Origin: Gammaproteobacteria bacterium
Lineage (GTDB): Bacteria > Pseudomonadota > Gammaproteobacteria > Pseudomonadales > Azotimanducaceae_A
Assembly: GCA_028819775.1 (NCBI GenBank)
Contig: JAPPKV010000011.1
Coordinates: forward strand, 1 to 7,265
Length of the DNA: 7,265 nucleotides
Direction: 5' to 3'
How positions within the stretch are numbered: the stretch's first letter is position 1; every line of letters begins with the position of its first letter. Of this stretch, positions 1 through 7,265 are shown piece by piece. The notes below the pieces were generated by a model that was not told the origin of the DNA, did not search any database, and saw only the letters and a program-made list of their open reading frames with translations. Made by a program: the position numbers and the translations under genes.

Positions 1-1453
1 GGCCTGCGGTTCGTCCGAACACCGCTCCCGCGGTCAGCCCGGTGCCGCCGGGATAATTGAAATAGTAGAGCCCGCCCACCAGTTCGCCGGCTGCGAACAA
101 ACGCGGAATCGGCGAGCCGTCCTCGGCCAGCACCCGGGCTTCGGCATCGACCGCCAAGCCCCCGAAGGTGAACGTAATGCCGCAGGTGACGCCGTAGGCT
201 TCGAAGGGCGGCGTGTCCAGACGGTTCGCCCAGTTCGATTTCGGCACGGCGAGGCCGACCGTGCCGCGGCCGTCCTTCACCGCCGGATCGAAAGGCGTCT
301 CGGTGTCGACTGCGGCGTTGAACCGGGCGACCTCCGCCACCAATGCCCCGGCATCCATCGTCTCGGTCGACGCGATCCTCTCCGCCAATGCCTCGATGCT
401 GTCCGCCGCGGCCCTGGTCACCCTGCCGACGCGGTACTCGTCGCGCAGCAGGTGGGCGACCTTGGCATCGAACAGCTGCCAGGCGCACTGACCCGGCTGG
501 TTCAGTATCTCGCGTCCGTAGCGCGCATAGGTGTAGTTGCGGTAGTCGGCCCCCTCGTCAAGAAAGCGGAGTCCGTCGCGGTTCACCACGATGCCGAACG
601 GGTAGGAGTGCTTCTGGAAGTTGTCGCCCACGTCCAGGTCGCCGAATTCGGGTGCGTTCATATCCCATGCGACCGCATGGCAACCCGAAAAGTTGCCCCG
701 GGTCGCCGCGCCGATGCCGACCGCCATCCGTATGCCGTCGCCGGTGTTGAACCGTGTCCCCCGGACCTTGGCGAGATCCCACCCCGGGCCGAGGTAGCGC
801 GCCCGCCAAGCCGGGTTGGATTCGAAGCCGCCGCAGGCGAGCACCACGGCGTTGGCATGGAGGCGAGGCCCTTCGGGCGCACTCCCGAGGCGGATTTCGA
901 AACCGTCCGGTGTTCCTTCGAGTCCGCTGGCGTGGGCGCCGTAGCGAATCTCGACCCCCGATTTCCGGGCGATGTCCGTCAACGAATCGATCAGTCCGGG
1001 CCCGCCGCCCCAGGCTTCGACGGTGACGCCGCCCCAGAAACGCACCTTCCCGCCAATCTCGAACGACTGCCGCCCGTAGAGCGGCAGAAAACGCACACCC
1101 TTCTCGCGCATCCAGCACAGCACCTCAAAACTCGAGTCGATGAGGCGTTCGGCAAGCTCGGGGTCGGCGCGGTAGTCCGTCACGCGGCCCAGGTCGTCGT
1201 AGAAGCGCTCCCTGGTATAGGTGCCGAAATCCGCACGTCGGACTTCGGCCTCGGTGAGTTCCGGCATCAGGCGACGCAGATCGTCCACCCCGCCGTAGAC
1301 GGTACGCATCGCGCCTGCGGTGAAGCGCGAATTGCCGCCTCGCAGAGCGTACGGCGCCCGTTCCAGCACGGTGACCTCCGCACCGCGCTCCCTAGCGGCT
1401 ATGGCGGCGACCAACGCGGCGTTACCGCCGCCGATCACGACGACGTGGGGCAC
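1..1453 (-). CDS. tcuA: TcuA-type FAD-dependent dehydrogenase (C-terminus cut by window edge)
   Basis: Flavoprotein of the fumarate reductase/succinate dehydrogenase flavoprotein superfamily, closest by eye to FAD-dependent tricarballylate dehydrogenase TcuA, which oxidises tricarballylate to cis-aconitate. My translation gives 484 codons open to the left edge. The N-terminus reads VPHVVVIGGGNAALVAAIAA, a Rossmann dinucleotide-binding motif (G8-G10, N11), with Glu31 at the end of the second strand and then RGGNSRFT (38-45), a TcuA-like block. ACGGFESN lies in the middle, and the end reads GITFTFGGLAVDA, then FAAGELVGG and GGTGLTAGAVFGRTAG, the usual C-terminal FAD-contact region, so few residues are missing. 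The start is GTG at 1453-1451, with GAGGA five bases upstream. It is divergent from the VOC gene. No TcuB or TcuC partner is visible. Substrate is inferred; a ketosteroid- or fumarate-type dehydrogenase of the same superfamily is possible. Confidence 0.8.
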   Translation of the reverse strand, partial: MPHVVVIGGGNAALVAAIAARERGAEVTVLERAPYALRGGNSRFTAGAMRTVYGGVDDLRRLMPELTEAEVRRADFGTYTRERFYDDLGRVTDYRADPELAERLIDSSFEVLCWMREKGVRFLPLYGRQSFEIGGKVRFWGGVTVEAWGGGPGLIDSLTDIARKSGVEIRYGAHASGLEGTPDGFEIRLGSAPEGPRLHANAVVLACGGFESNPAWRARYLGPGWDLAKVRGTRFNTGDGIRMAVGIGAATRGNFSGCHAVAWDMNAPEFGDLDVGDNFQKHSYPFGIVVNRDGLRFLDEGADYRNYTYARYGREILNQPGQCAWQLFDAKVAHLLRDEYRVGRVTRAAADSIEALAERIASTETMDAGALVAEVARFNAAVDTETPFDPAVKDGRGTVGLAVPKSNWANRLDTPPFEAYGVTCGITFTFGGLAVDAEARVLAEDGSPIPRLFAAGELVGGLYYFNYPGGTGLTAGAVFGRTAG

Positions 1454-1483
1454 GGCTATCCTCGTCCGGTGTCGGGGAGCGCA

Positions 1484-1512
1484 ACTATGCGAACCCCGGA
1501 GAGCCCCTGCAA
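1484..1512 (-). promoter_or_regulatory. Possible weak promoter for the TcuA-like gene
   Basis: On the minus strand TTGCAG (1512-1507) and CATAGT (1489-1484) are separated by exactly 17 bases and lie about 30 bases before the GTG start. The -10 box matches the sigma-70 consensus at four of six positions, the -35 box at only three. It lies in the 109-bp divergent region shared with the VOC gene. No comparable plus-strand promoter stands out; TAGACT at 1518-1523 is a poor -10 candidate with no -35 partner. Confidence 0.22.
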
Positions 1513-1562
1513 GCGGTTAGACTCCGAAGCTCCCGCACGGCAAACCCACGGAGAAGAGACCG

Positions 1563-1937
1563 ATGCGCACAGACACGATGTTGTTCGCCAAGGACGTGGT
1601 CGCGACGTCCCGGTGGTACCAGGACTTCCTCGGCATGCAGTCCGGGCATGGCGGATCTGAGTTCGAGATGCTGATGGACGGGGACACGCTGCTCCTCGAA
1701 CTCCACGAGATCGACGCGGATCACGACCATGGGGTGGCCACCGGCAACCCGCTCGGCCACGGTGTCGTCGTCTTCGTTCACGTCGAGGATCCGGACGCCG
1801 CGCTGAACCGTGCCCTGGAGTTGGGCATCGAAGTCGTCAGCGACCTTCAATACAACCAACAGGCCCGCATGACCGAGTTCACCGTTCGGGATCCCAACGG
1901 CTACGCGATCTGCGTGTGCAAGTCCGACTGGGGTTGA
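1563..1937 (+). CDS. VOC superfamily (glyoxalase/bleomycin-resistance fold) protein
   Basis: Small cytoplasmic protein of 124 residues, the normal size for one VOC unit made of two beta-alpha-beta-beta-beta modules. Module 1 starts with MLFAKDVVATSRWYQDFLGM (6-25), the typical strand followed by a helix ending in a Y-x-x-x-LGM turn. Module 2 starts with HGVVVFVHVEDPDAALNRAL and ends with MTEFTVRDPNGYAICVCKSD, the standard DPNG turn before the last strand. Usual metal-ligand positions look changed: the first strand has Met/Phe rather than His, and the last strand has Cys where Glu is common, so divalent-metal catalysis is doubtful. GGAGA sits eight bases before ATG. Divergent from the TcuA-like gene and convergent with lpxC. 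Substrate unknown; it could be a lyase, isomerase, dioxygenase relative or a drug-binding protein. Confidence 0.85.
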   Translation: MRTDTMLFAKDVVATSRWYQDFLGMQSGHGGSEFEMLMDGDTLLLELHEIDADHDHGVATGNPLGHGVVVFVHVEDPDAALNRALELGIEVVSDLQYNQQARMTEFTVRDPNGYAICVCKSDWG

Positions 1938-1947
1938 CTTCCGTCGG

Positions 1948-1962
1948 CGCCTGTTTCAGGCG
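1948..1962. other. Short perfect hairpin after the VOC gene
   Basis: CGCCTG, loop TTT, CAGGCG: a perfect six-base-pair stem beginning 11 bases after the VOC stop codon. There is no T-rich tail on either strand, so it is not a canonical intrinsic terminator. It may mark the transcript 3' end. Confidence 0.35.
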
Positions 1963-1990
1963 AGCGCACCATAGCCGGTTCGGCCGCGTC

Positions 1991-2007
1991 CGAAGGAGGC
2001 GCCTTCG
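1991..2007. other. Second hairpin in the convergent VOC/lpxC gap
   Basis: CGAAGG, loop AGGCG, CCTTCG: a six-base-pair stem in the 164-bp gap between the convergent VOC and lpxC genes. No poly-T tract follows on either strand. It may serve as a bidirectional 3'-end structure, but the evidence is only the inverted repeat. Confidence 0.3.
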
Positions 2008-2059
2008 CCATTCGCTGTGCGCCGACCCGCCTCCGTCCCAGCCACACCGGCCTCGCACG

Positions 2060-2098
2060 AACCGAACGCAACCGGTCGCGATGCTCCCGTTCGCGTTC
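2060..2098 (-). other. Inverted repeat just downstream of lpxC
   Basis: On the minus strand CGAACGC and GCGTTCG, seven bases each, flank about 23 bases and begin within a few bases of the lpxC TGA stop. This is a possible 3' stem for the end of the dcw transcript. There is no U-run, so any termination here would need Rho or another mechanism. Confidence 0.3.
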
Positions 2099-2101
2099 GT
2101 T

Positions 2102-2989
2102 TCATACGAGGCTGATCGGCGGCCTGCAACCGTTTTCGAATGTGACGGACCGATAGCTACCCGGATCGGCCAGCAGCTGCCTGATCAAGCCATTGTTCGA
2201 CCCGTGACCGGATTGGTAGCCGGAAAACGCGCCAATGATCGGATGGCCGGCAACGTAGAGATCTCCGATCGCATCGAGGATCTTGTGCTTGACGAACTCG
2301 TCCTCGCAGCGCAGTCCCTCGTCGTTGAGCACGCCGTCGTCGTCGACGACCACGGCATTGTCCAAACTGCCGCCACGCACCAGGTCCATGGCACGTAGCC
2401 GTTCGATGTCCGACAGGAAACCGAACGTGCGGGCCCGGCTGATGTCGCGAATGAACGCCCGCGAAGAGAAATCCACCGTCGCATGCTGGCAGAGCCCCAC
2501 GAAGTACGGATGATCGTAGTTCATCGTGTACTCGAGCCGGAACCCGTCGTGCGGCGAGAGAGCGGTGACCGCGTCCCCATCCGTCCAACTCACCTCCCGC
2601 GTGACCTGCAGGAAGCGTTTCGGTGCCGGCTGCTCTTCGACGCCCGCCGCGCGGATGAGTCGAACGAATGGTGCGGCGCTGCCGTCCATGATCGGCAACT
2701 CCGAGCCGCTTACATCGACCTCGGCATTGTCGATGCCCAAGCCCGCGAAGGTCGCCATCAAGTGTTCGATCGTGGAAATCCGCACGTCGTCGTCGCCAAG
2801 GGTCGTCGCAAGTTGCGTATCGACGACGTTCTGCGCCTTCGCCTCGAAACTGCAACCTAGGTCGCAACGCCGAAACACGATGCCCGCGTCCGGGTGCACC
2901 GGGCGGATGGTCAGGTCGACCTCCTGGCCGGTGTGCAGCCCGACCCCCTTCGCGTGCACCGTGCTTGCTAGCGTTCTTTGTCTTATCAA
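2102..2989 (-). CDS. lpxC: UDP-3-O-acyl-N-acetylglucosamine deacetylase LpxC
   Basis: Zinc amidase that deacetylates UDP-3-O-acyl-GlcNAc, the committed step of lipid A synthesis, in the cytoplasm. The 295-residue protein begins LIRQRTLASTVHAKGVGLHT, as in E. coli LpxC (MIKQRTL). Metal and catalytic residues are in place: E75-H76 in STIEHL, H235 and D239 in VKHKILDAIGD, and H262 in SGHGSNN. All are shifted by three from E. coli E78, H79, H238, D242 and H265. The start is a TTG at 2989-2987, chosen because residues further upstream are low-complexity Arg/Gly/Pro and unlike the family. The upstream GGCGGG is a weak ribosome-binding match. The stop is TGA. It follows ftsZ on the same strand after 323 bp, with a possible own promoter. 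The slightly short C-terminus (ends ISLV) lacks the E. coli tail that takes part in FtsH degradation. Confidence 0.96.
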   Translation of the reverse strand: MIRQRTLASTVHAKGVGLHTGQEVDLTIRPVHPDAGIVFRRCDLGCSFEAKAQNVVDTQLATTLGDDDVRISTIEHLMATFAGLGIDNAEVDVSGSELPIMDGSAAPFVRLIRAAGVEEQPAPKRFLQVTREVSWTDGDAVTALSPHDGFRLEYTMNYDHPYFVGLCQHATVDFSSRAFIRDISRARTFGFLSDIERLRAMDLVRGGSLDNAVVVDDDGVLNDEGLRCEDEFVKHKILDAIGDLYVAGHPIIGAFSGYQSGHGSNNGLIRQLLADPGSYRSVTFENGCRPPISLV

Positions 2990-3223
2990 CTGGCGCCCGC
3001 CGTAAAGGTGTGTTCTACGTTCCGGGCGCCCCCGACGCCCGGGCGCCGAGCCAGGTGGTCCAGTTCGATGCCTTGGCCAGGCCGTCGTCGGTCGCCCTAC
3101 GGCGGCATCATCCAAACCCCGCGCACAGACCACCGCGCCGGCCACCGAATATTAGCAATCGGTTCGAACCGCTACTGCCGAACTTTTGTAACAGTTTGTA
3201 TCGACTGGATTTTTGGGACAGCC
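2990..3223 (-). other. lpxC leader region with GC-rich repeat
   Basis: Non-coding stretch between repeat copy 4 and the lpxC start. Next to the gene it has a 9-bp direct repeat CCGGGCGCC at 3022-3030 and 3039-3047. The two GGCGCC cores can pair with each other, or GGGCG (3024-3028) can pair with CGCCC (3036-3040), forming a GC-rich stem roughly 35-60 bases before the start codon. The right part is AT-richer and holds the promoter candidate. The open frame running upstream of the TTG to 3145 has no recognisable protein features. Confidence 0.5.
3149..3171 (-). promoter_or_regulatory. Candidate extended -10 promoter with palindromic operator-like site, lpxC
   Basis: On the minus strand TGCTAATAT (3157-3149) is an extended -10 motif (TGn plus TAATAT, four of six matches with the key A2 and T6). 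No good -35 is found at 16-18 bases. Immediately upstream is the perfect 12-bp palindrome CGGTTCGAACCG (3160-3171), placed where a repressor or activator would overlap the polymerase. Transcription from here would give lpxC a leader of about 150 bases. Confidence 0.35.
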
Positions 3224-3307
3224 AGCGGCGGCACACGGCCCGACGAATGAAGACGACCATACGGCATCGAGGCGCGACTCGAGCGGGAGCCTTTTGCCGC
3301 GGACAGC
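3224..3307 (+). repeat. dcw intergenic repeat, copy 4 (inverted)
   Basis: Fourth copy of the repeat found in the other gaps of this cluster, here on the opposite strand to copies 1-3. The plus strand reads AGCGGCGGCAC at its left edge, then the 64-base core 3244-3307, starting CGAATGAAG, passing CGGCATCGA and GACTCGAGCGGGAGCC, and ending GCCGCGGACAGC. It aligns to copies 2 and 3 without a gap. Its edge lies five bases from the ftsZ stop codon. The outer arm has CGAAT against ACTCG (four of five pairs). Confidence 0.85.
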
Positions 3308-3312
3308 AACAT

Positions 3313-4470
3313 CTAGTCCGCCTGTCGACGCAGGAATGCCGGGATGTCGAGGTAGTCGGGATCCGCGGGCACCTGCCTTGTGGCCGCCTCCTCCTTGGCG
3401 GGGTTGTTGCGCATAACGGTGGGTCGATCCAGGTCTCGGTAGTTGGTCACGCCGATCGGATTGCGCAGGGAAGGCGACGGTTCTGCGGATTCCGATTTGG
3501 CGTTGCCGAGACCGGTCGCCACGACCGTTATCCGCATCTCGTCGCCGAGCGTATCGTCGCTCACCGTGCCGATCACGACGGTTGCCCCCTTCGAGGCCAG
3601 GTCCCGAACCGAATTTCCGATCTCCTGGAATTCGCGGATGCCAACGCTTGGGGCCGTCGTTATGTTCACCACGACGCCTCTTGCGCCGCGCAGGTCCACG
3701 TCTTCCAGGAGCGGGCTGTTGACCGCCTCGTCGATGGCGTCGCGTGCGCGGTTGTCGCCCGACGCCTGGCCGGTACCCATGATCGCCATGCCTCGCTCCG
3801 ACATCACCGTGCGAACGTCCGCGAAGTCGACGTTGATGCGGCCCGGCCTGATGATGATGTCCGAGATTCCTCTGACTGCACCTAGCAGCACGTCGTCCAC
3901 TGCGGCGAAGGCCTGGTCCATCGTGGCATCGTCGTCGAACACGGAAGGTAGCCGGTCGTTGGATATGGCGATCACGGAGTCGACATGCTGTGACAGTTCG
4001 ACGATGCCCTGTTCTGCAACCTTCGTGCGGTTCTCGAATTCGAACGGTTTGGTCACCACGGCGACGGCCAATGCGCCGATCTCCTTGGCGACCTCGGCCA
4101 CGACGGGTGCCGCGCCGGTTCCGGTGCCGCCGCCCATGCCCGCCGTGATGAATACCATGTCGGCCCCGGCCAGCACGTCGTGGATCCTGTCGCGATCCTC
4201 GATGGCCGATTGGCGTCCCACTTCCGGGCTTGTGCCGGCACCGAGACCCTTCGTGATTTCGGCACCCAACTGAAGCGTCGTCGGCCCCTGTAGGGTGCCG
4301 AGCGCCTGCGAGTCCGTATTGGCGGCGACGAAGTCGACACCCTGCACGCCGCTCGCAATCATGTGCCTAACGGCGTTGCCGCCCCCGCCACCCACGCCGA
4401 TGACCTTGATCACGGCGGTGCGCGTCGGATTGTCGACTAGCTCGAATGGCATGTCGGTCGTCGTAGTCAT
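3313..4470 (-). CDS. ftsZ: Cell division protein FtsZ
   Basis: Tubulin-like GTPase that polymerises into the cytokinetic ring at mid-cell. It has 385 residues, close to the 383 of E. coli. GTP-binding motifs are present: GVGGGGGNA (25-33), AANTDSQAL (49-57) and the tubulin signature GGGTGTG (113-119). The T7 catalytic loop is INVDFADVRTVM. A polar variable linker follows the GTPase core, and the conserved C-terminal peptide DYLDIPAFLRRQAD, which binds FtsA and ZipA, ends the protein. I place the start at ATG 4470-4468, giving MTTTTDMPFEL, because AAGGA lies seven bases upstream and the length fits; a TTG at 4497 in frame has no such site. Stop TAG. It follows ftsA after 137 bp containing repeat copy 1, and lpxC lies downstream. 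All essential motifs are intact. Confidence 0.99.
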   Translation of the reverse strand: MTTTTDMPFELVDNPTRTAVIKVIGVGGGGGNAVRHMIASGVQGVDFVAANTDSQALGTLQGPTTLQLGAEITKGLGAGTSPEVGRQSAIEDRDRIHDVLAGADMVFITAGMGGGTGTGAAPVVAEVAKEIGALAVAVVTKPFEFENRTKVAEQGIVELSQHVDSVIAISNDRLPSVFDDDATMDQAFAAVDDVLLGAVRGISDIIIRPGRINVDFADVRTVMSERGMAIMGTGQASGDNRARDAIDEAVNSPLLEDVDLRGARGVVVNITTAPSVGIREFQEIGNSVRDLASKGATVVIGTVSDDTLGDEMRITVVATGLGNAKSESAEPSPSLRNPIGVTNYRDLDRPTVMRNNPAKEEAATRQVPADPDYLDIPAFLRRQAD

Positions 4471-4477
4471 TTCCACA

Positions 4478-4482
4478 TCCTT
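4478..4482 (-). promoter_or_regulatory. Ribosome-binding site of ftsZ
   Basis: AAGGA on the minus strand, seven bases before the ATG at 4470. It decides the ftsZ start against the in-frame TTG at 4497. The surrounding GACAAGGA resembles the GACAAGGA at the ftsA start (repeat copy 2). Confidence 0.75.
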
Positions 4483-4483
4483 G

Positions 4484-4510
4484 TCAAATGATTTCAAACC
4501 CGAGTGTCAT
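4484..4510 (-). other. Possible 8-codon micro-ORF ahead of ftsZ
   Basis: On the minus strand an ATG (4510-4508) opens an 8-codon frame, MTLGFEII, ending in TGA at 4486-4484, 13 bases before the ftsZ ATG. It lies between repeat copy 1 and the ftsZ ribosome-binding site. The site before it (GGCGGCAGCG) is a weak Shine-Dalgarno. Such a frame could couple translation or be chance; only position supports it. Confidence 0.2.
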
Positions 4511-4526
4511 CGCTGCCGCCAACCTG

Positions 4527-4609
4527 CTTGTCCGCGGCTAGAGGCCCCACCCGAGTCAAGCTTCGATGTCGTATTGTCATCATCACTCGTCCCATGCGGG
4601 TACCCCGCT
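4527..4609 (-). repeat. dcw intergenic repeat, copy 1 (ftsA/ftsZ gap)
   Basis: Minus strand: begins AGCGGGGTACCCGC, whose AG belongs to the ftsA TAG stop codon. The core (4589-4527) follows, starting CGAGTGATGATGACAA, passing GACATCGA and GACTCG, and ending AGCCGCGGACAAG. One single-base gap is needed against the other copies. The inverted arms CGAGT/ACTCG and GATG/CATC are perfect. The copy-specific left edge also forms a hairpin, GCGGG-GTA-CCCGC. It ends 56 bases before the ftsZ ATG. Confidence 0.88.
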
Positions 4610-5831
4610 AGAGGTCGTTGAACCACGACCTCAATCGCGCGAATGCGCCGCTGCGGTTCGTCTTGCGACCGCGGCGGCCACTCTCCTTTTCCTGCTCCAT
4701 TCCATACATCAGCAAACCGACCCCCGTCGAGTAGATCGGGTTGCTGACAATGTCGGCGATGCCGGCGATCCGCTTTGGAGCGGCGACATCCACCGGCATG
4801 TGAAACACCTCTTCGGCCAGCTCCACGACGCCTTCCATCTTCGCTGAGCCGCCCGTTAAGACAACACCGGAAGCGATCAACTCGGCGTTGCCGCTACGGT
4901 TGAGTTCCCCTTGTACGAGGGTGAAAAGTTCCTCGTAGCGTGGCTCCACGACCTCGGCGAGCGCTTGGCGCGAGAGTTCCCGCGGTGGCCGGCCACCGGC
5001 GCCGGGAACCTGTATGGTTTCCTCCGCCCGCGCCAGTTGGGCCAGGGCGCAGGCGTGCTTGATCTTGATCTCCTCGGCGTGCTGGGTCGGCGTCCTGAGC
5101 GCCATGGCGATGTCGTTGGTCACCTGATCGCCGGCGATGGGAATGACCGCCGTGTGGCATATCGCCCCGTTCGTGAACACCGCGATGTCGGTCGTGCCGC
5201 CGCCGATGTCCACGAGGCAGACCCCGAGGTCGCGTTCGTCGTCGGTGAGCACGGACATGCTGGACGCCAGTTGTTCGAGGATGATGTCGTTGACCATGAG
5301 CCCGCAGCGTTCGATGCATTTCTCGATGTTCTGCGCGGCATTGACCGCGCAGGTGATGAGGTGCACCTTGGCCTCCAGGCGTACGCCCGACATCCCGAGC
5401 GGTTCCTTGACGCCCTCCTGGTCGTCTACCAGGAATTGCTGGCGGAGCGTGTGTAGCACCTTTTGATCTGCTGGAATCGCGACGGCCTGCGCTGCGTCGA
5501 GCACGCGGTCCACGTCCTGCTCGTACACCTCGCGATCGCGTATCGCGACGATTCCGTGCGAGTTGATACCTCGGATATGGCTGCCCGCGATTCCCGCGTA
5601 GACCGAGTCGATCTCGCAGCCCGCCATCAGCTCCGCCTCCTCGACGGCTCGCTTGATGGCCTCCACCGTGGACTCGATGTTCACCACGACGCCCTTTCTC
5701 AGGCCCCGGGAATGGTGGGAGCCGATGCCGACCACCTCGAGATCGCCGGATGCCGATACCTCGCCGACGATCGCGGCCACCTTGCTGGTGCCGATGTCCA
5801 ATCCGACGACCCTATGCGATTCGCCGCTCAT
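4608..5831 (-). CDS. ftsA: Cell division protein FtsA
   Basis: Actin-like ATPase that anchors FtsZ filaments to the inner face of the cytoplasmic membrane and recruits later divisome proteins. It has 407 residues, near the usual 420. ATPase phosphate motifs are GLDIGTSKVAAIVGE (10-24) and CLVDIGGGTTDIAVF (205-219), and the adenosine motif is SGVVLTGGSAKMEG (321-334). The inserted 1C interaction domain, unique to FtsA, spans roughly 86-165 and begins SHIRGINSHG. The last residues, GAFARLRSWFNDL, form the amphipathic membrane-targeting helix after a basic linker (GRRGRK). The start is ATG with AAGGAA four bases upstream, and that site overlaps the edge of repeat copy 2. Stop TAG overlaps repeat copy 1. 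Between ftsQ and ftsZ, the classical order. Confidence 0.99.
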   Translation of the reverse strand: MSGESHRVVGLDIGTSKVAAIVGEVSASGDLEVVGIGSHHSRGLRKGVVVNIESTVEAIKRAVEEAELMAGCEIDSVYAGIAGSHIRGINSHGIVAIRDREVYEQDVDRVLDAAQAVAIPADQKVLHTLRQQFLVDDQEGVKEPLGMSGVRLEAKVHLITCAVNAAQNIEKCIERCGLMVNDIILEQLASSMSVLTDDERDLGVCLVDIGGGTTDIAVFTNGAICHTAVIPIAGDQVTNDIAMALRTPTQHAEEIKIKHACALAQLARAEETIQVPGAGGRPPRELSRQALAEVVEPRYEELFTLVQGELNRSGNAELIASGVVLTGGSAKMEGVVELAEEVFHMPVDVAAPKRIAGIADIVSNPIYSTGVGLLMYGMEQEKESGRRGRKTNRSGAFARLRSWFNDL

Positions 5832-5838
5832 CCGTTTC

Positions 5839-5923
5839 CTTGTCCTCGGCCAAAGGCTCCCGCTCGAGTCGAGTATCGATGCTGCATTGTCATCATCACT
5901 CGTTTCACCGGGGTGCCACCGCT
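5839..5923 (-). repeat. dcw intergenic repeat, copy 2 (ftsQ/ftsA gap)
   Basis: Minus strand: starts AGCGGTGGCACCCCGG, with its AG inside the ftsQ TAG stop, then the 64-base core (5902-5839) from CGAGTGATGATGACAA through GCATCGA and GACTCGAGCGGGAGCC to GAGGACAAG. Its last bases overlap the AAGGAA ribosome-binding site of ftsA. It fills nearly all of the 90-bp gap. Inverted arms CGAGT/ACTCG and GATG/CATC are perfect. Confidence 0.9.
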
Positions 5924-6611
5924 AGTCTTCCGATTCCCACTGCACGGCGACGCCGGTGTGGTAGCGGGCATCGACGCGAACAACGCGTTCCGACGAGTCC
6001 GCGAGTTCCTTGGCGTATACCACGAGAAACCGATCGAATCGCTCCCGCAACGCCGTCGATCCGAGGACGACCTCCATCCCGTCGGCGAACGCGACCGACC
6101 AGTCGCCGACGCCGTCCTCTTCGAGTCGGGCGATGCGAAGGCCGATGGCTCGCGCCTGCGCATTGAGCAGATTGTAGATCCGCATCGCCTCGGCGCCGTC
6201 GGACAGCGAGCCCGATAGGATCGGCAAATCCGAATCCCGACCGACGCCCGAATCCGAGGGTACGGGGACGACATCGCCGCCCGTCGTCAGATACGCGTCG
6301 TCGCCCCAACCTGCGGCCAACGTGTCCCGAACGACCGCGACATGCAGGGTGTCCGGCCAACGCAGCCGCACCATCACCTGGCGCACCCACCCGATCGACT
6401 CGATGGCCGCGGCCACGTCCCGGGCACCATGCGGGCCCGGTCGGGACAATACCGTGTCCACGACCTCTTGCACCTGCCGGCTCTCCGGCACGGTCAACTG
6501 TCCCTCGAGCCGCACGAGTCCGACATCCACTGTCGCCACCGCCTCGGCGAACCGGAGCCCCCCGAAACCGGCGACGGCGACAACCGCCAGCCATACCAGT
6601 GACCGAACCAT
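5922..6611 (-). CDS. ftsQ: Cell division protein FtsQ
   Basis: Bitopic divisome protein that links early cytoplasmic and late periplasmic division proteins through the FtsQLB complex. It has 229 residues, shorter than the 276 of E. coli. A single hydrophobic segment spans about 5-23 (LVWLAVVAVAGFGGL). The periplasmic POTRA domain follows from about 27 to 98, with the recognisable end IGWVRQVMVRLRWPDTLHVA and then the beta domain (AAGWGDDAYLTTGGDVV). The cytoplasmic part before the membrane helix is only about four residues. The start is fixed: the codon immediately before the ATG is an in-frame TAG, and GAGGGAG lies five bases upstream, overlapping repeat copy 3. Stop TAG overlaps copy 2. Family identity rests on the POTRA motif, size, topology and position before ftsA. 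Confidence 0.95.
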   Translation of the reverse strand: MVRSLVWLAVVAVAGFGGLRFAEAVATVDVGLVRLEGQLTVPESRQVQEVVDTVLSRPGPHGARDVAAAIESIGWVRQVMVRLRWPDTLHVAVVRDTLAAGWGDDAYLTTGGDVVPVPSDSGVGRDSDLPILSGSLSDGAEAMRIYNLLNAQARAIGLRIARLEEDGVGDWSVAFADGMEVVLGSTALRERFDRFLVVYAKELADSSERVVRVDARYHTGVAVQWESED

Positions 6612-6619
6612 CTAGTCTC

Positions 6620-6708
6620 CCTCACCGCGGCAACGGGCTCTCACTCGAGTCAATCGTTGATGCCGTTTCGTCACCATCATTCGTCGGGCTTCTGCGCCGC
6701 CGGCCGCT
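6620..6708 (-). repeat. dcw intergenic repeat, copy 3 (murC/ftsQ gap)
   Basis: Minus strand: left edge AGCGGCCGGCGGCG, then the 64-base core (6683-6620) starting CGAATGATGGTGACGA, passing GGCATCAA and GACTCGAGTGAGAGCC, and ending GCCGCGGTGAGG. It is the most diverged copy but aligns without gaps to copies 2 and 4. Its end overlaps the GAGGGAG ribosome-binding site of ftsQ. Unlike copies 1 and 2, its far edge lies about 88 bases from the preceding stop codon. Confidence 0.8.
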
Positions 6709-6796
6709 CTTGACCGCCCTTGGCGTCTTTACATAGGTTGCATGTGGCAAAGTGCATCGGATTGCTCCCGAACGGCTGGCGTCCTCGCCAGACGCG
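6709..6796 (-). other. murC-proximal part of the murC/ftsQ gap, with hairpin
   Basis: Non-coding stretch just after murC. A perfect stem CTGGCG, loop AGGA, CGCCAG (6791-6776) begins five bases after the murC stop and has no U-run, so it is a 3'-end or processing structure at best. Further on, TATGTA (6736-6731) is a poor -10 candidate without a convincing -35. ddl or murB, often found here, is not present even as a remnant that I can recognise. Confidence 0.4.
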
Positions 6797-7265
6797 CTAG
6801 GCGTTCCTCAGTGCTTCGGCGACCCAAGCGATGTCCCCGGCACCCTGAACGACCACCACGTCGTCGTCCGCGACGACCGTGCGCAGGTGTGCCAATGCCG
6901 ACTCCGGCGTTGGGACAAACTCGGGGCGTCGGCCGTTGGCCAGCCGAATGTCGCCGGCCAACGTGGCGCCGTCGGCACGGGCAATGGGGGGCTCGCCGGC
7001 CGGGTAGACCTCGGCGATGAGCAATTCATCGAGATTCGACAACACATCGACGAACTCGTCGTAGAGGTCCCGGGTCCGGCTGAATCGATGCGGCTGATAG
7101 ACCATCACCAGGCGGCGCTGCGGCCAGATCCCGCGCGCGGTACGGACCACCCGTTCCAGTTCCGTGGGGTGGTGGCCGTAGTCGTCGACCAGCGTCAGGC
7201 TCCTTCCCGCGAAACGGGACGGGCAGGTCTCGAACCGGCGGCTCACGCCGCGGAATCCCTCCAGG
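6797..7265 (-). CDS. murC: UDP-N-acetylmuramate--L-alanine ligase MurC (C-terminal part)
   Basis: ATP-dependent cytoplasmic ligase that adds L-alanine to UDP-MurNAc, the first amino acid of the peptidoglycan stem peptide. Only the last 155 residues are in the window; the frame runs open through the right edge and begins LEGFRGVSRRFE, the start of the C-terminal Mur ligase domain. Conserved blocks match MurC: DDYGHHPTEL, YQPHRFSRTRDLYDEF, EVYPAGEPPI and VVQGAGDI. The GTG at 7246 is an internal codon, not a start. The central ATP-binding and N-terminal UDP-MurNAc domains lie outside. Stop TAG. It is the upstream gene of the dcw segment here, followed directly by ftsQ. Confidence 0.97.
   Translation of the reverse strand, partial: LEGFRGVSRRFETCPSRFAGRSLTLVDDYGHHPTELERVVRTARGIWPQRRLVMVYQPHRFSRTRDLYDEFVDVLSNLDELLIAEVYPAGEPPIARADGATLAGDIRLANGRRPEFVPTPESALAHLRTVVADDDVVVVQGAGDIAWVAEALRNA

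Follow-up and report, generated by a model that had tools for sequence, protein, structure and literature searches.

A repeat of about 90 bp fills each of the four gaps of a murC-ftsQ-ftsA-ftsZ-lpxC division and cell wall (dcw) cluster in a gammaproteobacterial contig (JAPPKV010000011.1, positions 1 to 7,265; this whole stretch of 7,265 nucleotides is referred to as the window). It is very probable that the repeat is a non-autonomous mobile element and that the dcw pattern follows from its use of CTAG as a target. Its dispersed copies are too short to code for a transposase, and orthologous sites are found both empty and filled; they are best described as a new family of short, non-autonomous mobile elements resembling the palindrome-associated transposable elements (PATEs) of Haloquadratum and the YPAL elements of Yersinia. 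Target availability and tolerance would then explain why each gap of the cluster holds a repeat, without a division-specific regulator. The pattern points to a mobilising enzyme with a CTAG-type target, and the filled and empty sites of sister species offer a natural experiment in which essential operons accepted 90-nt insertions exactly at their stop-start junctions.

Four copies and their dispersal

The first-pass annotation of the window had placed four copies of 83-89 bp in the gaps of the cluster. All four are found at those places, three on the minus strand and one on the plus strand. Profiles built from three copies recover the fourth at E values of 2.4e-17, 9.9e-16, 3.4e-18 and 7.4e-13, and the next-best place in the window reaches only E 0.21, in line with the earlier statement that the window holds no further copy. 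The similarity also withstood the shuffled-sequence comparison named in that annotation: all six pairs of copies outscore all 500 dinucleotide-preserving shuffles (z 7.9-21.9). An alignment of the four copies over 98 columns has 47 columns identical throughout (the 37 counted before refer to a 64-column core). Delimited with its flanking tetranucleotides, the element includes the stop codons of ftsQ, ftsA and ftsZ. The approximate spans are:

6612..6706, minus strand: copy in the murC-ftsQ gap; the right CTAG (6612-6615) adjoins the ftsQ ATG (6611), and the left tetranucleotide is decayed (CGGC)
5831..5925, minus strand: copy in the ftsQ-ftsA gap; the left CTAG (5922-5925) holds the ftsQ TAG stop, and the right end is decayed, running into the ftsA ATG at 5831
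4519..4611, minus strand: copy in the ftsA-ftsZ gap; the left CTAG (4608-4611) holds the ftsA TAG stop, and the right end reads TTGG (4519-4522)
3222..3316, plus strand: copy in the ftsZ-lpxC gap, inverted relative to the genes; the right CTAG (3313-3316) holds the ftsZ TAG stop, and the left end reads CCAG (3222-3225)

At E <= 1 no Rfam family matches over any copy in the window; the sole sub-threshold match lies at 2332-2357.

A family-level sample of 200 genomes contained six with an FtsQ 76-98% identical (designated G801, G816, G758, G741, G791 and G709) and five with an FtsQ at 51-55%. With one copy as query, five genomes each gave 9-19 blastn matches at E <= 1, a few of them by chance, and the five genomes at 51-55% gave weak short matches only (best E 0.008, in G769). 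A covariance model built from 34 copies was run on the 16 genomes of the genus-level group at E <= 0.01. Its counts are limited both ways, scoring being confined to the top 150 candidates per genome and the list extending down to E 0.01; on these terms there are 34 matches in G801, 31 in G741, 30 in G791, 28 in G709, 24 in G816 and 3 in G758, and none in the other 10 genomes. When the family sample was searched with stricter filters and the best 20 candidates per genome, 8 of the 200 genomes matched at E <= 0.001, namely the six carriers and, with one weak match each, G706 and G790. The covariance-model search, which the first-pass annotation had called for, settles the choice it left between a dispersed repeat and a control element specific to the division cluster. 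The former stands, with 24-34 matches per genome in five relatives, in many unrelated gaps. The latter falls: G709 has 28 matches with none in dcw, and a ribosomal operon of G741 has three copies in three gaps, much like dcw. The smaller genome of G758 (3.4 Mb) holds 3 matches against 30 in its sister G791, which may reflect copy loss alongside genome reduction, or incompleteness.

In the searches made here, every genome with the repeat family belonged to a single gammaproteobacterial family. Judged by FtsA, the closest named genomes reach 70-77% identity, and a profile search of 80 loci of these more distant relatives gave no copy (best E 3.4). For FtsQ, a class sample of 369 genomes had no match at E <= 1e-50, and an order sample of 293 genomes had three at E <= 1e-30, all distant. 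One exact pattern found no match in viral contigs, nor did a distant blastn search with one copy find any in plasmids and phages.

An NCBIfam scan of 20 neighbour proteins places copies at rpoB-rpoC (partial genes), at the ribosomal protein pairs L21-L27 (rplU-rpmA), L1-L10 (rplA-rplJ), S14-S8 and L18-S5, at BCCP-prmA, and beside yajC, sucB (in G758), tusD, sspA (below cut-off), clpB (partial) and diphosphomevalonate decarboxylase; locus L210 gave no match and locus L139 only a weak match to BchD. The neighbours secD, lpd and exbB-exbD were assigned by eye from translations. In the ribosomal operon of G741, three copies occupy three gaps among S14, S8, an unscanned gene at the L6 position, L18 and S5, so the dcw cluster is not unique in having multiple filled gaps.

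Empty sites, ends and subfamilies

The murC-ftsQ gap is filled in the window, G801, G816, G741 and G791, and empty in G758 and G709. The empty site reads GAACGG-CTAG-GTG in G758 and GAACGG-TTAG-GTG in G709, and the filled site in G816, G741 and G791 consists of CTAG, the element, NTAG and the start codon. The ftsQ-ftsA gap is filled in the window and G801 and empty in the other five genomes (G816, G741, G758, G791 and G709). Copies occupy the ftsA-ftsZ gap in the window, G801, G816 and G741; the site is empty in G758, G791 and G709. The ftsZ-lpxC gap carries an inverted copy in the window and G801 and none in G758, G791 and G709; in G741, the 1044 bases read past ftsZ hold no copy, and the gap is unreadable in G816, where the contig stops inside ftsZ. 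Conservation at orthologous gaps, which had been proposed as a mark of a regulatory leader, holds for murC-ftsQ in five genomes including the window, and in part for ftsA-ftsZ, but presence varies between sister species.

A protein tree of ftsQ, ftsA, ftsZ and lpxC, in which G816 and G741 are incomplete, puts G709 closest to the outgroups, followed by (G758,G791) and (G741,(G816,(window,G801))), with supports of 0.90-1.00. In a tree of copies, clustering is largely by genomic position. The murC-ftsQ copies of the window, G801, G816, G741 and G791 are mutual nearest, as are the ftsA-ftsZ copies of the window, G801 and G816; the ftsA-ftsZ copy of G741 has these three as its nearest, but the unrelated copy L120 is slightly nearer to them. 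Clustering of the dcw copies by gap roughly matches inherited insertions. On the protein tree, the murC-ftsQ copy would have been lost in G758 or gained independently in G791.

In the window and G801, an extra segment of about 85 bp (window 6711-6796) separates the murC stop from the murC-ftsQ copy, which begins at the murC stop itself in G816, G741 and G791. The segment has the appearance of a second insertion into the same CTAG. Apart from the same place in G801, it has only chance-level matches elsewhere in the fetched loci.

The ribosomal-operon sites of G741 are variously filled, empty or left with short remnants in G816, G801 and G791. The copy behind S8 in locus L203 corresponds to a 4-bp empty site (CTAG) in L236, and four orthologous empty sites carry C before TA (L236, L193, L220 and L174). 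The S14-S8 gap, filled in G741 and G816, holds remnants of 41 nt in L236 and 28 nt in L172; the 41-nt remnant seemingly retains both element ends, as if internally deleted.

The ends of the element were examined in a larger set of copies. Profile searches gave 188 hits at E <= 1e-3, of which 144 were distinct and 134 full (partial copies starting after profile position 12 or ending before 80 were left out). Removal of copies with less than 60 bp of flank left 130, which were merged by homology of either flank into 85 independent loci; in one merged group, of 13 members, tandem neighbours may have brought unrelated copies together. The left boundary is sharply defined, and TAG stands exactly there in 71 of the 85 loci, preceded by C in 89% of the 71, and the sequence further left is near-random. 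The right end is often NTAG, with TAR within 11 nt in 38 of the 85 loci compared to 47 of 850 control flank windows. There are no terminal inverted repeats, the left end being CTAGCGGYGGCA and the right end near CAAGGAGANTAG. The element occurs in both orientations, and its copies fold, with modest z-scores, as one long, weak and imperfect hairpin rather than as two clear subterminal palindromes. Head-to-tail pairs sharing a TAG, or a decayed TAG, between them are seen at L105/L207 (G741, contig C9), L119 (G801, C142), L250 (G709, C58) and L226 (G791, C11).

The weak outliers G706 and G790 led to a second subfamily of the same design, which begins CTAACGAGGCGATGCCTC, ends near CCGCGATCAAGAAAACTAG and has CTAA as its left tetranucleotide. 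Members occur in G706, G739, G790, G685, G756 and G777, and a search scoring the best 4 candidates per genome matched 13 of the 200 family genomes. Its left tetranucleotide coincides with the upstream stop in only 4 of 28 matches (three TAA, one TGA), so the coincidence with stops is weaker there. The C before TA at the empty sites fits a CTAG-type target at the left end, as in IS200/IS605 elements; the subfamily-specific left ends (CTAG and CTAA) would fit equally well with a left end that is the element's own.

Stop codons and ribosome-binding sites

The left TAG is the TAG stop of the upstream gene in 28 of the 85 loci, and in 7 the right end coincides with the end of a gene on the opposite strand. 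The 364 background CTAG sites of these loci comprise 75 at TAG stops, 214 inside genes and 75 elsewhere. Only 8 of the 85 copies lie inside called genes, compared to 214 of the 364 background sites. Gene calls for these loci, as for the neighbours and the second subfamily, came from a purpose-written codon-usage script rather than an established gene finder; a check on the window gave the expected genes. For the 33 genes with a start codon no more than 14 nt from a right end, the median pairing energy with the anti-Shine-Dalgarno (anti-SD) sequence is -5.8, compared to -5.0 in 336 other genes (p 0.39); the random level is -3.2, from which the genes next to right ends differ with p 5e-5.

The proposed account is as follows. 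The element of about 90 bp would be moved in trans by a mobilising enzyme and would insert at CTAG, or more loosely at YTAR. Many of the CTAG sites outside genes are UAG stop codons, and because TAG stays in the same position, the upstream reading frame would still end where it did before. For a gene whose start lies immediately past the right end, the tail of the element would act as the ribosome-binding site, maintained by selection. With the stop kept and the tail serving as a ribosome-binding site, copies could survive inside essential operons. The succession of four genes ending in NTAG would account for the single copy in each dcw gap. In clusters without copies, the corresponding gene ends of murC, ftsQ, ftsA and ftsZ read CTAG, TTAG, GTAG and CTAG in G758, and TTAG, CTAG, GTAG and CTAG in G709. 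In the window, these four genes end in NTAG, and lpxC and the VOC gene end in TGA. The genes of the cluster are:

6797..7264, minus strand: murC (3' part); partial TIGR01082 match below cut-off; TAG stop at 6797-6799
5922..6611, minus strand: ftsQ; NF008043 match below cut-off, and FtsQ homologues; TAG stop
4608..5831, minus strand: ftsA; TIGR01174 above cut-off; TAG stop
3313..4497, minus strand: ftsZ (start uncertain); TIGR00065 above cut-off; TAG stop
2102..2992, minus strand: lpxC (start codon uncertain); TIGR00325 above cut-off; TGA stop, with no copy at its end

The gene names given in the first pass are retained, as LpxC, FtsZ and FtsA score above the NCBIfam cut-offs and MurC (3' part) and FtsQ match below them. 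At E <= 1e-3, a further 52 homologues match FtsQ, and 49 of these are 52-98% identical to it.

A wider proposal is tentative and probably goes too far, namely that the two subfamilies belong to a superfamily of very small mobile elements adapted to the junctions between operon genes, with a stop codon at the left edge (CTAG or CTAA by subfamily) and a tail resembling a ribosome-binding site at the right. Were it true, insertion at a stop-start junction would be neutral for the reading frames of both neighbours, and the tight junctions of essential operons (dcw, rpoBC, ribosomal) would have been replaced repeatedly by a folded 90-nt spacer in this lineage.

Several observations weigh against a mobile element that inserts at CTAG. 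The right TAG is far less regular than the left one, standing at the exact place in 30 of 85 loci compared to 71 of 85. Among the 134 copies, the base before the left TAG is C in 97, G in 11 and T in 2, and that before the right TAG is A in 19, C in 14, T in 12 and G in 8; because these preceding bases differ, a simple 4-bp target duplication is unsupported. The fold z-scores of the window copies on the sense strand are weak (-1.9, -1.7, -1.9 and -0.04), and covariation is slight (2 of 13 pairs). Where no start codon follows, the tails score at the level of random sequence as ribosome-binding sites (median -3.2, n=50), so the site would be maintained where needed rather than be a fixed part of the element. 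No preference for stops is seen beyond CTAG itself, with 28 of 77 non-genic copies at stops (35 when the opposite-strand stops at right ends are included) compared to 75 of 150 non-genic CTAG sites. Targeting of stop codons as such is accordingly unsupported; insertion at CTAG followed by loss of gene-breaking insertions suffices, and no special preference is needed. Finally, no transposase is tied to the element. Y1 transposases (PF01797) occur in 4 of 6 carriers and 3 of 5 non-carriers, with no PF01797 match in G709, which has 28 copies, or in G758. The 16 Y1 loci hold no copy (best E 0.13), and two of them carry arrays of a different repetitive extragenic palindrome (REP) family, of type GTAGGGGACGGGC.

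Related elements and alternative explanations

No published description of this repeat family was found in titles or abstract openings of the open-licence literature on mini-elements, CTAG targets, ribosome-binding-site repeats, enterobacterial repetitive intergenic consensus (ERIC) elements and dcw repeats. The comparisons below rest on parts of the cited papers. PATEs, as portrayed in the portion drawn upon, have no terminal inverted repeats, carry near-terminal palindromes, are transposase-free and occur in many copies with strain-specific insertions (PMC3119063). The absence of terminal inverted repeats and of a transposase, and the many copies, are common to PATEs and the present element. 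It differs in its one long imperfect hairpin and in CTAG at stop codons, and PATEs are linked to IS605-type transposons by shared ends, whereas no such transposon was found here. Movement chemistry like that of the IS200/IS605-derived PATEs, suggested by the missing terminal inverted repeats, the fold and the short fixed target, is a guess that is more readily wrong than right.

YPAL, or RU-2, of Yersinia is, by the partial account used here, not A+T-rich, has internal inverted repeats and no TA termini, and is known from empty and filled sites (PMC2229807). The present element is alike in all these points; YPAL is about 168 bp in length and duplicates 3-26 bp of its target, whereas the element is about 90 bp with TAG at its edges. 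ERIC elements differ in being about 127 bp, with a TA target and terminal inverted repeats. The same partial source describes ERIC, also called IRU, as a foldable repeat co-transcribed with its neighbours (PMC2229807). The likeness lies in a foldable repeat among genes, the sequences themselves not having been compared directly. The TAACTGA repeats of Beggiatoaceae are intergenic and lie just upstream of many start codons, including those of some essential genes (PMC4679880). The likeness there is the intergenic place before starts; these are heptamer direct repeats, and their abstract describes no mobile-element anatomy of about 90 bp.

The ERIC precedent in Yersinia, seen in part (PMC2229807), lends itself to the alternative that survives best, in which a repeat of mobile origin is now kept as a transcribed operon hairpin that would set messenger stability or uncouple the translation of neighbours, a role that ERIC reportedly has there. 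Sense orientation prevails between co-directional genes (33 compared to 15, binomial p 0.013), several copies lie in essential operons, and some insertions are retained across several species. However, close relatives have empty orthologous sites or short remnants there, and the sense bias may reflect only the need for a well-placed stop and start. Such a function is possible, but we consider it rather unlikely. Lower still in probability is a miniature inverted-repeat transposable element (MITE) descended from a DDE insertion sequence whose 4-bp target is of the YTAR type, as is known from the IS5 group. Empty sites that read CTAG, TTAG, CTAA or GTAG, and TAG at both ends in many loci, would suit such an element; the ends lack terminal inverted repeats, and the bases before the left and right TAG differ systematically.

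Searches with the ends also bear on the MITE. The left-end exact pattern had 57 matches in 6 genomes, below its backward control in every genome and so without enrichment by count; the right-end pattern had 25 matches compared to 4 for its control. Among the 14 loci read (13 new ones and the known weak copy L317, seven extra left-end matches lying outside this reading), no longer element with either end was found; shortened left fragments occur in L296 and, weakly, in L287, and the remainder is chance-like. No ends shared with an IS200/IS605 transposon were seen at these 14 loci or at the 16 Y1 loci.

A REP element moved by a REP-associated tyrosine transposase (RAYT) is very unlikely. REPs and the bacterial interspersed mosaic elements (BIMEs) built from them are, in the part of the source consulted, short extragenic palindromes of about 20-35 nt with a conserved 5' head, often GTAG, and are inverted in BIMEs (PMC2817692). 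The element shares the palindromic, intergenic character and a TAG-bearing 5' end, and Y1 genes are present in some carrier genomes. It is, however, about 90 bp long and forms direct rather than inverted pairs. RAYT was dropped as a partner on the strength of the 16 PF01797 loci, none with a copy and two with the other REP, and G709 carries its 28 copies with no Y1 match. The least credible explanation is that the copies are cis-regulatory RNA leaders of the division cluster, structured controls that each act on the gene behind them: the copies directly before ftsQ, ftsA and ftsZ, the orthologous murC-ftsQ copies of the window and four genomes and the imperfect hairpin would agree with it, but a cluster-specific leader is contradicted by dispersal into unrelated gaps (rpoB-rpoC, ribosomal and other operons) and by the empty dcw sites of G709 and G758, which carry copies elsewhere, and the copy behind ftsZ is inverted and covariation is little.

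Some further observations concern Y1 genes and REP sequences in the carriers. Y1 genes surrounded by arrays of the other REP (type GTAGGGGACGGGCTTGTCCC) are found in L261 (G791) and L262 (G741), and the same REP lies behind ftsZ in G758 (L260:2200-2223). Two weak Y1 transposase-like frames in G801 (L266 and L271) have one internal TAG each. A related 5' half (CTAGCGAGGC...CCGACGAGGCATG) is followed by other sequence in G801 (L345/L363); in G791 (L343, L364 and L365) it directly adjoins REP-unit sequence, and the two together are possibly a composite.

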